A DNA stretch of 34,096 nucleotides from a virus. The stretch covers positions 1 through 34,096 of the IMG/VR virus record IMGVR_UViG_3300030685_000062. One strand, given 5' to 3'. This document shows positions 2,800-33,291 of the stretch, piece by piece. Each line of letters begins with the position of its first letter. Positions within the stretch are counted from its first letter, which is position 1. The position numbers and the translations under genes are program-made. The notes under the pieces were generated by a model, which was given only the letters and a program-made list of their open reading frames with translations, ran no database searches and was not told where the DNA came from.

Positions 2800-3030
2800 A
2801 TGAAAATCCTACTGAGTAACCCGGAGTTTGAAGAATTGTGGAAAACGTATAATGAATATTTGCTGGAGAGTCATGGAATAATCTTGAATTTTAAAGAGAA
2901 ATGTGACCGACTGAATGAACTGGATATCCTTTCGGATAATAATCCGGCAATGGCTTATGAAATCCTTGAAATAATGATATGTAACGGCGAAATAATCATC
3001 AAAATGCCTAATGCTAACGAATTTGCATGA
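2800..3030 (+). CDS. Small helical protein, stand-alone copy of the W-Y-Y-H / LSDNN domain (copy B)
   Basis: This 76-aa protein consists almost entirely of the domain found in the genes at 459-944 and 23210-23461. W14, Y17, Y20 and H25 are followed by LSDNN at 44-48, with the same W-to-L spacing of 30 residues as in the other copies. The SRQE segment is replaced by a KEKCDR segment, so it has diverged more. It lies six bases after the repressor stop and is probably co-transcribed with it. It would then be expressed in the lysogen, unlike the other two copies. Function unknown. Confidence 0.75.
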   Translation: MKILLSNPEFEELWKTYNEYLLESHGIILNFKEKCDRLNELDILSDNNPAMAYEILEIMICNGEIIIKMPNANEFA

Positions 3031-3047: not shown

Positions 3048-3252
3048 ACTGCGGCAAAATTGAGGCAGTAATTTTATAAATGGACTGTATATGAAAAATA
3101 ATATAATTGATAGTGAGGGAGTTGGGAAATTTTTAAGTGTGGAATTTGGAACGGGGGAATCCCTCTCTCTCCGCTTATGTGTATGTAAAACGTTGTATTC
3201 CAAAAGAATGCAGCGTTTTTCTTTTTTGTACTGCGGCAGAAGTGCGGCAGTA
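3048..3252. other. attP: Putative attP site with tRNA-Ser-like core and paired arm sites
   Basis: The core GAATCCCTCTCTCTCCGC (3157-3174) matches the 3' end of a bacterial serine tRNA gene as I remember it (T-arm half and acceptor strand). No other part of a tRNA is present. Two copies of one composite motif flank it, ACTGCGGCA-N4-TGmGGCAGTA, at 3048-3070 and 3230-3252. Each contains two TGmGGCA boxes 11 bp apart, about one helical turn, and an outer ACTGC/GCAGT dyad. This is the layout expected for arm-type binding sites of a tyrosine integrase. The integrase gene starts 74 bases to the right. A 74-aa plus-strand frame across this site is rejected as a gene. Confidence 0.72.
3189..3227 (+). 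terminator. Rho-independent terminator just after the att core
   Basis: A 12-bp stem pairs 3189-3200 with 3206-3217 (two G-T wobbles) around the loop CAAAA, and is followed by TTTCTTTTTT. It lies 14 bases after the tRNA-like core. After integration it would end transcription of the restored tRNA gene and insulate the phage. Confidence 0.8.
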
Positions 3253-3325: not shown

Positions 3326-4474
3326 ATGACTATTATCAACGACAATTTTGAACTGAATTATGAGCCGGCACGGATATGCAACGGTAAGGAATTGCTTATA
3401 AAATACTATGCCCGTAACCCTACTGACGGCAAAATGAAGCGGGTGGTGATGCGTTTTAACCACTTAAAAAAGAAGATGAATAAAACGGATATTAACCGGT
3501 TTATGCGTAAAATAATGAACGATATAAACGTAAACCTGGCTGCCGGGAAAAATCCGTTTGTCGAAGCGGAAATGCCTAAATCGTACGAAAAGCTGATCAC
3601 GGCTACTGAAGAATTTTTAAAACTTAAAAAGCGGGATATGCGTCCGGATGGGCACCGGTCGTATACTTCCTACTGCAAAAAATTGAATGAATGGTTGATT
3701 AAACGGGGAATGACTGAATGCTTCGTGGCTTCGTTTACGCCGGAACTGGCCGTGGAACTGATGAACGAGCTGTCGATGAATGAGGGTCTGAATAACAGGA
3801 CGTATAACAACCACTTTGTTTTTTACCGGTCGTTATGGAATTGGCTCATCGCGAATTATTACTGCAAAACGAATGTATTCGCGAAATTTGAGAAGAAACG
3901 GGAGGATGAGAAGTTTAGAAATGTGATCCCTACGAAAACACATGCTCTAATTGTAGCTTACTGCAGGGAATTTAAACCGGAACTTGAGATTGTGATTGAC
4001 CTGGTACGAGCGGCGTTTATACGACCTTCGGAAATGTGCCTGGTTCAAATTAAAGAAATTGACCTGATCAACAAAGTGATTAATATACCGGCATCGAAGG
4101 CAAAGACTCATCATGCGCGATTCGCGTATCTTCCGGACTGGTTGGTGGATAAAATTAAACGTCATTATGTACTGGAGCGGATCCATCCGGATAGTTATTT
4201 TATTGCTTCAGCATTGCATCCGGGACCGGAACCTATTAACACGCGTACAATGGATAAGTACTGGGCGAAAATGAGGAAGGATATCGGCCTATCGATGGAT
4301 ATGCAGCTTTACTCCTACCGCGATACGGGTATTAATATTCTGGAGGAAAACGGGGTAGCTCGAAAAGTGATTATTAAACTGACTGATCATAAGACTGAAA
4401 AAATGCTGGGGAAATATATGCATCAACCGAGTAAGGAGTTAATTGAGGGGGTGGTTAGTCAAATAAAAGAATAA
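3326..4474 (+). CDS. int: Tyrosine recombinase (phage integrase)
   Basis: This 382-aa protein has an N-terminal arm-binding-type region (1-80), a core-binding SAM-like domain (about 85-185) and a catalytic domain (about 200-375). Catalytic residues are visible: R233 (AFIRPSE), K258/K260 (ASKAK), R332 in YSYRDTG, H355 in LTDHKTEKML and the nucleophile Y364 (LGKYMHQ). The usual first His of the HxxR box is Tyr329, a substitution I recall in other Bacteroidetes integrases. The gene is next to the attP-like site and on the opposite strand to the late genes. It should integrate the phage into a tRNA-Ser gene and, with an excisionase not seen here, excise it. Confidence 0.95.
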   Translation: MTIINDNFELNYEPARICNGKELLIKYYARNPTDGKMKRVVMRFNHLKKKMNKTDINRFMRKIMNDINVNLAAGKNPFVEAEMPKSYEKLITATEEFLKLKKRDMRPDGHRSYTSYCKKLNEWLIKRGMTECFVASFTPELAVELMNELSMNEGLNNRTYNNHFVFYRSLWNWLIANYYCKTNVFAKFEKKREDEKFRNVIPTKTHALIVAYCREFKPELEIVIDLVRAAFIRPSEMCLVQIKEIDLINKVINIPASKAKTHHARFAYLPDWLVDKIKRHYVLERIHPDSYFIASALHPGPEPINTRTMDKYWAKMRKDIGLSMDMQLYSYRDTGINILEENGVARKVIIKLTDHKTEKMLGKYMHQPSKELIEGVVSQIKE

Positions 4475-18076: not shown

Positions 18077-21000
18077 TTAGCGTTGACCGAGTTTGTAGCT
18101 GTCGTCGACTACTTTTTCGACATATTTGAATTCATGGTAGTTGATTCCGGCTTCGAGTTTTGTATTCTTCAATCGTTCTAACCAATCTTCTAATCCGGCA
18201 ATGAAATTCGAATTTTGAATGTTATTTCCTACCGGTGAATCATACCCACCATCGGCAAAACCACTGTCGGGCAATGGATTGCTGGAGGTGCGTTGGCGGC
18301 GAACGGACTCTATTTTGCGGACCATGGAGGCGATACCTGGAATAGCCATCTCGGGTTGAGCTACTACATATTCTCCTTTATGTTTTTTATTACCACTTTG
18401 TAAAATACCTGCAGGTTCGTATCTTCCCCCAGCTCCCGTATATCCTGTATCTTTGACCGGATCCCAACCACCATCGGCATAACCTTTATTCAGAACATAG
18501 GATCCGGTAGAGGTGGATGGTGAGGACGCGGGGGACGATGAATCGGTGGAAACTGGATTTTCGTCGGGAATTGGGGTGGCGATGATGGTCGCAATTTCTA
18601 AAGCTCCTGCAACGCCTGCTATAATTGATAATGGTATATTAGGAAGTGCTTCAGCGACTGCCCTTGCGGTATTGATGATGGCACTTACTAAGTTTAACGC
18701 CTTTGCACGCTCGGCTGCCTGATGGTCGATCTTGGCTTTTTTAGCGGCATATTCAGCGTCGAAATTTGCTTTTCCTTTATTTATTTTAGCCCAATTTGCA
18801 AGTTCTTTAGCGCCTAATGCTGAAGCAAAATTTGAAGCACCTGACAGTACATTATTCGCTCCTTCGGCGTATTTTAATACGTTGCCAATTTTGCCCTTTA
18901 GCGCATCATCATCTGCTTTTTTATCCAGGGCATCATAATAATCATTTATCTTTTTTATTTCTTCAGCGCCTCCTTTTGCATTATTGACAGCGTCTTGTCT
19001 TTTTGCCAAATTATAGGCTTTTTCTTCTTTTAGAGATTCTTTATTTTGGATCTGTTTGAGGGCGAAATCATAATCAGCATTTTTCAAATTGGTTTTATAC
19101 ATTTCAGCAATATCCTTATCGGTATCCGTAATGTATTTACCAAATGAATCGACCTGACCTTTGATCAGTTTACTGGTGGCTTCGATGGCTTCTTTAACGC
19201 GTTTTTCGTTGTACTTGATCTGTATATCGAGTACTTCACGGTCGGATGATTCCTGATAGGCTGATTTGAGTTGGTTGTATTGTTCGAGGGTTACCAGTCC
19301 TTTGCCGTACGCCTTATCCAGTTCGTCCACCTTTTTTTGTTGGGATGTGCGTACGACTTCTATTTCGCGTTTTTCGGACTCGGCAATTGCCTGGGTTTTG
19401 GCTTCTAAAAGTTTAAGATTGAAATCGAAGGTTTCTTTGGTGGCTTTTTTATCATTATTTTGAGTATCCGTAATAATTGCATTGCTTTCCTTATTTGCTT
19501 TTTCGCGATCGGCTAATTCTTTTTTTAATGTATTGCCATTCATATTTGCGAGGTTCATTTTTGCTCCTGCAATTAAATCGTCAATCGTTTTTTCTTCTTT
19601 TAAACGTTCGGCATTAAATGCTCGTAGTTTCTCTCTTGATTTTGCACCCTCTTCACCTTCTAATTTTGAGTTTTTTTCATAAATACTTCTTGTATATTCT
19701 GATTGAGATTGCTGATATTTTTTCTGGGCTTCTAATCGTTTTATATTTTCTTCAGTTTCTGCAATGGCATCGCGTTTTGTATATTTAAGTAAAAGGACCT
19801 GATCTTCTACAAATTTACGTGCCTTATCACCGCTGATAGAAATGGCATTTCCTAATTTATCGAATTGAGTGACGGCTCCCGGAATGGTAGCTCCAATTTC
19901 TTTTATGACCGTTTTTAATTCGGATTGTTCATTTTTTGAAAGTTTTGTTTTGTCTTTCAACGTTTCATACCGATCGATCAAACCTGAGGTGGTAGTTGTT
20001 AAATCATGTACCGTCAAATTTTGTTCGTTGAAATCTTTGGTTAAGTCTTTAACCGATAATAATTTCGTAAGACCGTCAGAAATTTTTGAAAATACATTCA
20101 CCATTGGAATCCAAACTTTAAGCAAGCCATCGCCTACAGCTTCCTTTACTTCCTCCCATTTGATTTTATTTTGTTGAATTTGCCCCCACTGGCTTTTCAT
20201 GGCGTCAGTGTTTCCACCGGTGAATTTGGTTAATCCTTCCTGAATAATGCGGTAGTTTTCGGCTCTACTACCGGTATCTTTAAATGCAAGTCCTAACTTA
20301 CCAAGTGCCGAACGTGCCATAACTCCATTGACGGTACCTTTATCCACCGCGGTAGCCATATCATCCAATGATTGTCCTGAAGCGGCTGCAGCATCAACCA
20401 TTAAAGGCATTAATTCTAACACCTGCTTTGTTGATAAACCAAAGTTTAACATTTGTGTTCCGGTTTTCTCAATTTCTTCGTGGCTGAAAATACCCATTAA
20501 TTCCTCTGCTTGTTTTGCCATTTCAGCAAGGTCGGAATCACTTCCATGTCCTACTGTTTTAACGGCAAATCCAAGACGTTGCATTGATTTTTCGGCGGCC
20601 AGTGCATCTTCGGTCATTGAGCCAAAAAATTCGCCTACCTTCATTGCACCTGCGAGCACCATCGCCCATCCTGAAAGGGCTGATTCGGCAAATCCTTTAA
20701 GGCTGAATGTGCTCTGAACTTCCTGCGTTTTTCCTTTTAGCAGGTTCATTTGGTCGTGGGTGGCCTTGAGTTGGGTTTCGAGCTTTTTGTATACTTCGGG
20801 TGCCAGGGCTTTGGAGGTGGTATCCATTTGCCGTTGTAGGTCGGAAGCGGTTTTTTTGAGCTGGGACATGGTCATGTTCTCGAGTCCCATGGATTTCTCG
20901 TGCTCCTTGACCAACAGGGTATTGTTAGCGATTTCTTTTGAATTAGTTTTATAGGTGGCCTCGAGGTTTTTCCACTGATCGGTGTTCTTTTTTCCCTGGC

Positions 21001-21151
21001 CTTCGAGGTCGCGCATGGCTTTGCTGATATCCTTGTTGGTGGATATAAGTTCTTTGTTAGCGACATTGAGTTTTTGGATTTCCTGTTGTGCCTGGTTGGC
21101 ATCTATGGAGAGTATCCATTTTATTTGATCATCGGTTAGTTTTGAGGCCAT
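18077..21151 (-). CDS. Tail tape measure protein
   Basis: This 1024-aa protein has a long helical, coiled-coil N-terminus (residues 1-150, Lys/Gln/Asn-rich). A hydrophobic patch follows (ALSGWAMVLAGAMKVGEFFGSM, about 157-178), then a core typical of tape measures (SMQRLGFAVKTVGHGSDSDL, QMLNFGLSTKQVLELMPLM). A second coiled coil lies at about 490-780 and a hydrophobic segment at about 825-860 (LVSAIINTARAVAEALPNIP). The C-terminus is Gly/Ser/Pro-rich. It sets tail length and helps DNA pass the envelope. With about 1000 residues a tail of roughly 150 nm would follow from the usual 1.5 angstrom per residue. It implies a long-tailed (probably siphovirus) particle, since no sheath gene is seen. 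Confidence 0.88.
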   Translation of the reverse strand: MASKLTDDQIKWILSIDANQAQQEIQKLNVANKELISTNKDISKAMRDLEGQGKKNTDQWKNLEATYKTNSKEIANNTLLVKEHEKSMGLENMTMSQLKKTASDLQRQMDTTSKALAPEVYKKLETQLKATHDQMNLLKGKTQEVQSTFSLKGFAESALSGWAMVLAGAMKVGEFFGSMTEDALAAEKSMQRLGFAVKTVGHGSDSDLAEMAKQAEELMGIFSHEEIEKTGTQMLNFGLSTKQVLELMPLMVDAAAASGQSLDDMATAVDKGTVNGVMARSALGKLGLAFKDTGSRAENYRIIQEGLTKFTGGNTDAMKSQWGQIQQNKIKWEEVKEAVGDGLLKVWIPMVNVFSKISDGLTKLLSVKDLTKDFNEQNLTVHDLTTTTSGLIDRYETLKDKTKLSKNEQSELKTVIKEIGATIPGAVTQFDKLGNAISISGDKARKFVEDQVLLLKYTKRDAIAETEENIKRLEAQKKYQQSQSEYTRSIYEKNSKLEGEEGAKSREKLRAFNAERLKEEKTIDDLIAGAKMNLANMNGNTLKKELADREKANKESNAIITDTQNNDKKATKETFDFNLKLLEAKTQAIAESEKREIEVVRTSQQKKVDELDKAYGKGLVTLEQYNQLKSAYQESSDREVLDIQIKYNEKRVKEAIEATSKLIKGQVDSFGKYITDTDKDIAEMYKTNLKNADYDFALKQIQNKESLKEEKAYNLAKRQDAVNNAKGGAEEIKKINDYYDALDKKADDDALKGKIGNVLKYAEGANNVLSGASNFASALGAKELANWAKINKGKANFDAEYAAKKAKIDHQAAERAKALNLVSAIINTARAVAEALPNIPLSIIAGVAGALEIATIIATPIPDENPVSTDSSSPASSPSTSTGSYVLNKGYADGGWDPVKDTGYTGAGGRYEPAGILQSGNKKHKGEYVVAQPEMAIPGIASMVRKIESVRRQRTSSNPLPDSGFADGGYDSPVGNNIQNSNFIAGLEDWLERLKNTKLEAGINYHEFKYVEKVVDDSYKLGQR

Positions 21152-31578: not shown

Positions 31579-33291
31579 TTAGTTTGTTGAATAGGTCCCC
31601 GCTCCCATGACTGTGACAGTACGACGGTCTGAATCGGGTAACAGGCGACTGAATTCGCCCCATAACAGGTACATAAGAGCAGATGCGATCTGGGTGGAGT
31701 AGAATGCCTGATCTTTATAATCGAGCAACTTTTCGGAGCTTTTGTCGAGTTCAATTTTACCTTCAGTACGTTTGAGCGGTGAATGGTAAATACTCGATAC
31801 GGTTGCTTCACACTCATTTTCGTCAATCATTACATCATCCCGGTTGCCTTCGTTTTTGCCGAATAACAGATTTAACAGTCGGTAATGTTGTGAATAGAAA
31901 ATCGTGGGTTGTCCCAGGCTCATCAGGGTAACGTTCCAACCGAGCTTCTGTAAGGCCGTTTTAAGCAAGATGGCATCGGTGTCGTTCAAATCCCCGTTCA
32001 GGGCATAATACTTGCGATAATGGGGGTCACGTTGATTCGCTGCCCTATCGTAGTGCAAGATGATTGTCTTTTTTCGTTGATATTTGAAGAATTCATTGAA
32101 TTTAAGTGCCATTTCTTCGTGTTGCTCCGGATGAATGACCCACATATCTTTAATAAGCCTGAATTTCTTTTCTTTTTTATTGCGCTGGGCGATGACCATG
32201 CTCGAGAACGGTCCGGGATCCAGTCCGATGATCAACGGTTGATTTGCATCCCAATATTTCAGATTTTTGCAGGAATGATCAAACTTCTGATCGACTGACA
32301 ACTTATCGATGTGCTTGTAATTGTATCCATCGTCGAATGTGTGTTCTTTGCCAAATCGACCGAAAAAACGGTCTTTAACCATGTTTTTACGAATGGCCAG
32401 AATCGACGTGTTGAGTTTATCGATATCCTTAATGGATTTAATTTGATTTTCGATATAGTCGATCCCTAAAATCTTAAGGTTCGAAAATGAGGATGCCCGG
32501 GCATAGAAAGTCTGACCACGTCGGAGTTCTGTCAATCGTTTTTCCCATCGATCGATAAATGCAGTTAGTTTTTTGATGTTCTTTTCATCGAAATTCTTCT
32601 CGGCAATTATCAGGTCCGATTTACGCATGTCGACCTCCCTGGCAATTTCCTGAATGCATTTAATGAGTTCGATATTCATATTCGCTTCATAGCGTATCCA
32701 CCAATCGTGGTCGGTCTCAAAATTGGGAGTGGATGATATGCCGGTAATGCCCATAAAGTAATGAGAATGCCCAAATTTTGAACGATCGGCACGCAAAGCA
32801 GGGATAATGCGTTCGGTGAATTTATCTTCAGGAATACGCAGCATTTCGTCCACTAATAAATGAGCGGCATTCTTACCCAACATGGATTCAGGTCGATCGC
32901 AGGATACGAATTGAACAACGCACCCATTGACAAAACTGATGGTATGCTTCCAGTTGTCAATATAGGTCGAGCATTTAGCGAAATGTTTAGGGGGTTGTTT
33001 GCCTATTTCGAAGTAAATACCGCGCTCATAATGCTCATAGAAGTACTCCATAAGACCAGGCAGAATGTTTTCGAATATCGATATGTAGGTCGATGCAGCC
33101 AGTACAATGACAGCACCCGGCATATCATTCTGTATACGATCCAGGCGGGGGGCTAATATGTGGGTAGTCTTACCCGATCCACGCCCTAACTCACAAAATA
33201 GAAAGGTAGGATCGGCTAACTTTATCTGGATCTGAATAATGGTCAGGTAGACAGTCAGGAAGATATCCAGTGCATACTTACGTATTTTCAT
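31579..33291 (-). CDS. terL: Terminase large subunit
   Basis: This 570-aa packaging motor has an ATPase domain with Walker A GRGSGKT (36-42) and Walker B HLLVDEM (144-150). A nuclease domain starts at about residue 350, with first acidic residue D358 in LIIGLDPGPF, a second in LHYDRAAN (D415), and likely a third near LLDYKDQAF close to the C-terminus. It cuts and pumps DNA into the prohead through the portal. The start overlaps the small-subunit stop by 14 bases. The visible motifs are intact, so the enzyme is probably active. Confidence 0.93.
   Translation of the reverse strand: MKIRKYALDIFLTVYLTIIQIQIKLADPTFLFCELGRGSGKTTHILAPRLDRIQNDMPGAVIVLAASTYISIFENILPGLMEYFYEHYERGIYFEIGKQPPKHFAKCSTYIDNWKHTISFVNGCVVQFVSCDRPESMLGKNAAHLLVDEMLRIPEDKFTERIIPALRADRSKFGHSHYFMGITGISSTPNFETDHDWWIRYEANMNIELIKCIQEIAREVDMRKSDLIIAEKNFDEKNIKKLTAFIDRWEKRLTELRRGQTFYARASSFSNLKILGIDYIENQIKSIKDIDKLNTSILAIRKNMVKDRFFGRFGKEHTFDDGYNYKHIDKLSVDQKFDHSCKNLKYWDANQPLIIGLDPGPFSSMVIAQRNKKEKKFRLIKDMWVIHPEQHEEMALKFNEFFKYQRKKTIILHYDRAANQRDPHYRKYYALNGDLNDTDAILLKTALQKLGWNVTLMSLGQPTIFYSQHYRLLNLLFGKNEGNRDDVMIDENECEATVSSIYHSPLKRTEGKIELDKSSEKLLDYKDQAFYSTQIASALMYLLWGEFSRLLPDSDRRTVTVMGAGTYSTN

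Follow-up and report, generated by a model that had tools for sequence, protein, structure and literature searches.

That a lambda-type phage attachment site (attP) can lie in the 3′ end of a tRNA gene is, as a kind of arrangement, already known. In the lambda-type attP, a core sits between two arms, P and P′, whose arm-type sites are read by the N-terminal domain of the integrase (PMC4880445). The attP of the Cluster K mycobacteriophages – CrimD and its kin – has, according to PMC3203893, a tRNA core with arm-site pairs on both sides, a putative stem–loop terminator between the core and the right arm, and an arm consensus that varies with N-terminal residues of the integrase. ICEKp1 of Klebsiella, an ICE residing at tRNA-Asn, displaces the tRNA terminator to its far end and carries stem–loops between the tRNA and int, which attenuate read-through into int from the tRNA promoter (PMC13023037). 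Within Bacteroidetes, the NBU1 integrase uses the 3′ end of a tRNA-Leu gene as its insertion site (a title cited in PMC8138268), and the CTnDOT integrase, IntDOT, possesses an arm-binding domain; both, however, belong to conjugative or mobilizable elements rather than to phages. For the Bacteroidales group formed by Paludibacter and its kin, no phage site was described in the literature searched.

Here, we describe such a site in the virus record IMGVR_UViG_3300030685_000062, whose positions 1 to 34,096 – the entire stretch of 34,096 bases analysed – we call the window. With a probability of about 95%, positions 3048–3252 make up a complete attP that belongs to the lambda-type tyrosine integrase gene at 3326–4474 and is directed to the 3′ end of a Bacteroidales tRNA-Ser(UGA) gene. 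The site shares with lambda-type attP sites the core flanked by P and P′ arms but each of its arms bears a single pair of sites, both pairs in one orientation; unlike in lambda, its core is a tRNA 3′ end. It shares with Cluster K the tRNA core, the pairs on both sides, the stem–loop between core and right arm and, across its own family, the varying arm consensus, while differing from it in the host (actinobacterial in Cluster K), in an unrelated arm sequence and in the orientation of the right arm pair, which is inverted in CrimD (PMC3203893). In the phage collection, no direct DNA relatives of the window were found; the window itself contains no tRNA gene and no exact terminal repeat of more than 10 nt.

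The elements of the site all lie on the plus strand. A repressor-like regulator gene (2449–2793; phrog_8 transcriptional regulator, 6.6e-9) reads towards attP and is among the last phage genes before attR once the phage is integrated; a related prophage contig (G001) has a regulator-like ORF in the corresponding position at its far end. Between this gene and the P arm, the ORF list contains a small ORF of unassigned function (2800–3030), with a 41% identical stretch in the related contig L011. The P arm (3048–3070) is the composite site ACTGCGGCA-AAAT-TGAGGCAGTA, with boxes at 3050–3056 and 3061–3067, and the P′ arm (3230–3252), 55 nt past the core, is ACTGCGGCA-GAAG-TGCGGCAGTA, with boxes at 3232–3238 and 3243–3249. 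Between them lie the 18-nt core GAATCCCTCTCTCTCCGC (3157–3174), in which 3160–3174 are the 15-nt minimal core common to relatives, TCCCTCTCTCTCCGC, and a predicted phage-borne intrinsic terminator (3187–3229), consisting of a 14-bp stem (3187–3219) and a T tract (3220–3229) and backed by covariation in eight relatives. The 382-aa tyrosine integrase follows at 3326–4474 (PF00589 6.2e-14, phrog_1 1.5e-27). Elsewhere among the early phage genes, the minus strand encodes a LuxR-type (GerE) helix-turn-helix protein (1691–2044).

An earlier, sequence-only reading had placed the core at these same positions and an arm on either side of it within 3048–3252, and its account of two TGmGGCA boxes per composite site, one helical turn apart, proved correct for both arms, with a spacing of 11 bp. 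It had called the two arm sites identical: they follow one pattern, in the same orientation and at an offset of 182 nt, but agree at 20 of 23 positions, so that three differ. Likewise, the terminator that it saw after the core is present as a hairpin with a T tract, although the stem begins 12 rather than 14 nt past the core. The composite pattern is expected less than once in shuffles of the window, and its exact form occurs in only three other stretches among 2.9 million viral contigs, each of them with the core as well. For bending-protein and Xis sites, we know of no consensus for this host.

The same reading had taken the core for the 3′ end of bacterial serine tRNA genes, and a check against the tRNA-Ser genes of Bacteroidetes, set in advance as a test of that claim, bore it out. 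Within the family of Paludibacter sp. UBA5753, 96 of 150 genomes contain the exact 18-nt sequence GAATCCCTCTCTCTCCGC; of 296 genomes sampled across the phylum, 47 do, and the reversed pattern gave no match in either set. In 26 of 30 inspected loci, it forms the exact 3′ end of a tRNA-Ser(UGA) gene; at the remaining four it is followed by CA, as in CCA-encoding genes, which a one-base rule for calling the tRNA end would miss.

This tRNA gene appears to attract other elements as well. Directly past the native tRNA-Ser(UGA) terminator begins a different Bacteroidetes-type integrase-like gene, both at the attR of the Paludibacter sp. UBA5753 prophage described below (L033 in genome G009, reverse strand) and at the empty site of genome G010 (L036); its presence there in both Paludibacter genomes makes this tRNA look like a shared insertion hot spot. 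In a 75-kb viral contig (L007:3187-3212), the same tRNA-Ser core is followed by ACGTTG and a hairpin and adjoins a 400-aa integrase-like ORF on the opposite strand, which suggests a second phage lineage with the same target; as this integrase is unrelated and on the other strand, the contig was set aside as a relative. A related integrase in G010 (L024/L035, contig C56) is accompanied by the core in a non-tRNA, attP-like context cut by the contig end, and in that genome tRNA-Ser(UGA) is unoccupied.

The whole-attP reading is upheld by the attL and attR sites of relatives, with their core and arms. The same anatomy is found at integrase relatives of 52–66% identity, either as unintegrated attP sites with the element order of the window (L011 and L012) or at integrated ends, such as the attL of the viral contig L010, which begins inside tRNA-Ser(UGA) and at its far end stops just beyond the regulator that precedes the P arm. 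Both ends of one prophage are captured on a single contig of Paludibacter sp. UBA5753 (G009, a MAG; DIFH01000149.1), where a 39.2-kb prophage with a 64% identical integrase has its two cores 39,163 nt apart, the P arm near one and the P′ arm near the other. In its attL, a complete tRNA-Ser(UGA), of which the 15-nt core forms the end, is followed by the phage hairpin, the P′ arm and int; its attR consists of the P arm, the core and a different hairpin terminator. A second lysogen, G1121, shows the same attL and attR anatomy, its two ends sharing a variant core, TCCCTCCCTCTCCGC. The assemblies of the two lysogens are drafts, and in G1121 the two att sites fall on separate contigs. Thus, the check for prophage relatives using this very repeat – also specified beforehand – gave complete attL and attR pairs in two lysogens. 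The P arm is conserved in L011, L012 and L004 and at the attR of both lysogens, lying 80 or 89–90 nt from the minimal core where measured.

As the core alone is also present at attL and attR, the locus might in principle be the attL or attR of a prophage, or what is left of a decayed one; this is almost certainly wrong, since the two arms and the core form an unbroken stretch with phage genes on either side, in the order of the L011 and L012 attP sites, and the tRNA and host flanks are absent. The 358 family genomes searched included no close lysogen of the window phage, the best integrases there being 64–66% identical. The tape-measure (18077–21151) and large terminase (31579–33291) proteins of the window are only about 25–30% identical to those of the G009 prophage, compared with 64% for the integrase, so that the integration cassette is much better conserved than these virion proteins.

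The hairpin behind the core (14-bp stem, 5-nt loop, T tract; z = −4.3) is maintained as a structure. Across eight relatives, 99% of cells are paired, five pairs are altered on both sides, with nine double-sided changes, and the covariation score was reached by none of 500 shuffles. The stem sequence AAAACGTTGTAT hardly varies among most of the close relatives, and int is preceded by a further, related ACGTTG stretch, as might be expected of a double-stranded binding site – for Int, Xis or an int regulator – that merely looks like a terminator. We regard this as unlikely, because the stem of G1121 is largely rewritten in the same place and register, with compensatory changes and the T tract kept, because G–U pairs and a T tract fit RNA, and because the stems that distant relatives carry here, at Ser, Glu and Met tRNAs, are unrelated.

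The claim that the phage brings its own terminator for the tRNA gene is supported by both lysogens, in which the native host terminator is displaced beyond attR. That the attR terminator is the host's own follows from two observations: a terminator of the same kind lies behind tRNA-Ser(UGA) in another Paludibacter genome, where the site is unoccupied, and joining the host flanks of the Paludibacter sp. UBA5753 prophage restores an ordinary tRNA-Ser with its native terminator, as in natural empty sites. The comparison shows a reciprocal exchange, visible directly in the two lysogens: the tRNA is now followed by the phage hairpin, and the rightward regulator operon of the phage by the host terminator. 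This swap is no new principle, as the displacement in ICEKp1 and the stem–loop of Cluster K were already known; a comparison of a swapped terminator in lysogens was not found in the available part of PMC3203893.

The parallel with ICEKp1 (PMC13023037) also raises the possibility that the hairpin is a partial attenuator which, in the lysogen, adjusts how strongly int is expressed from the tRNA promoter. The host tRNA terminator is displaced in the same manner and the hairpin has the same position upstream of int, but a strong 14-bp stem with a T tract, 12 nt after the tRNA, speaks for termination, and we hold attenuation to be a tentative, minority possibility – one not mutually exclusive with a terminator within a complete attP.

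The integrase aligns with its family at the catalytic residues R233, K260, R332, H355 and Y364; Lys replaces the catalytic Arg at position 332 of the window protein in 12 of 72 aligned integrases. Its AlphaFold model (pLDDT 88) has strands at residues 12–19, 23–30 and 37–43, followed by a helix at 53–72, and hence a predicted arm-binding domain of the three-stranded-sheet type at approximately residues 12–72. Full-length lambda Int (1z1b, 1z1g, 5j0n) is among the best PDB matches of the model in a fold search, and a sequence search of solved structures with a close-relative profile found none at E ≤ 0.01. Residue 43, an Arg in the window protein, falls at the end of the third strand of this N-terminal sheet. 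In the lambda and Tn916 integrases, the three-stranded N-terminal sheet is the DNA-reading element.

Paired boxes recur throughout a wider sample of 40 loci, whose integrases are mostly about 26–36% identical to that of the window and which lie beside Ser, Gln, Lys, Thr, Arg, Glu, Met, Val, His, Leu and Ala tRNA genes. A strong pair of heptamers at exactly 11 bp is present in 27 of 31 non-redundant intervals from tRNA (or core) to int; each other period from 7 to 31 is represented in at most three, and letter-shuffled intervals give on average 0.7 pairs at 11 bp (maximum 3). The consensus of the boxes is mostly YGnnnC[AG], with a sequence that varies by lineage, and in some distant relatives (L107, L135 and L136) a clear pair was not found. 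In one clade of related integrases (L098, L104, L105, L108, L115–L123 and kin), no tRNA lies directly upstream and the boxes have the form TGTCCCG/TGGCCCG. Distances from the tRNA end to the first box in the L069–L108 intervals cluster at 42–47, 55–61 and 65–67 nt, and the short-distance class (Gln, Lys, Thr, Ala and Arg tRNAs) is often without a clear hairpin terminator. Helical-turn quantisation of these arm-to-core distances is not claimed here, as the period test had no sharp peak and tRNA type is a confounder.

What ties the boxes to the integrase is a covariation between the first box position and a single residue. In a mutual-information screen for box position 1, residue 43 stood far above all others (z = 11) in the first set; with 28 further loci, fetched after that screen, it reached z = 30.7, the next best residue scoring 5.9. 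Among the 47 loci with a readable pair – those without a clear one being excluded, and boxes in non-standard cases being assigned by eye among pairs of period 11 – all 29 with Arg43 have T as the first base of one box or both, and all 18 with Lys43 have it in neither. The "T in either box" form of the rule was fixed after locus L095 had been seen, this locus being the one exception to a first-box-only version. On a tree built without the N-terminal domain, residue 43 and the box trait each change 11 times, and all nine well-supported independent contrasts agree (sign test p = 0.004). Three loci fall outside the rule: L131, and L085 and L087, which have Leu and Tyr at position 43. The boxes of the latter two start with CC or TC or are off-pattern, rather than starting with YG, which fits the rule, if anecdotally, and would suggest an influence of residue 43 on box position 2 as well. 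Other box positions covary with integrase residues in a weak and scattered manner (z at most 7.9, with most of the residues lying outside the N-terminal domain), which we took to be shared ancestry.

The covariation at residue 43 is the best evidence short of bench work that the integrase reads the composite sites. It also bears on the proposal that they bind a repressor or excisionase instead: the outer ACTGC/GCAGT is palindromic, and RDF sites, too, may be direct repeats one turn apart, as for Apl of phage 186 (PMC7498355), but a box position that tracks an integrase residue through 11 changes on the tree, and arms that flank the core on both sides as they do for lambda and mycobacteriophage integrases, make this highly improbable.

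Taken as an integrase-read attP, the site would work as follows. The integrase would recombine the 15–18-nt core, which presumably contains the crossover point, with the matching end of the tRNA-Ser(UGA) gene of its Bacteroidales host, its N-terminal domain binding the paired heptamers of each arm (YGnnnCA, 11-bp period), and residue 43 would sit at box position 1, perhaps in direct contact with it – Arg with T, Lys with C. Integration would keep the tRNA coding sequence complete and place the phage hairpin 12 nt behind it, where, if as strong as predicted, it would end the tRNA transcript and shield int from the tRNA promoter, while the original host terminator would move to the far end, behind the phage repressor operon.

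The elements that are new here, as judged from comparison of genomes, are the heptamer pair of 11-bp period in this integrase family and its tracking of residue 43. We think it likely that there is a large Bacteroidales family of tRNA-targeting integrases in which the heptamers of the arm sites come in pairs, exactly 11 bp in period, and residue 43 sets the first base, Arg reading T and Lys reading C. As the residue and the box have switched together about 11 times, arm specificity would be predictable from sequence and could probably be reprogrammed by one substitution. For Paludibacter and its kin, the locus provides a complete attP–integrase cassette with comparative support and, for arm-site recognition by integrase N-terminal domains, a one-residue hypothesis that can be tested at the bench; arm specificity is one determinant that keeps related integrases off each other's sites.
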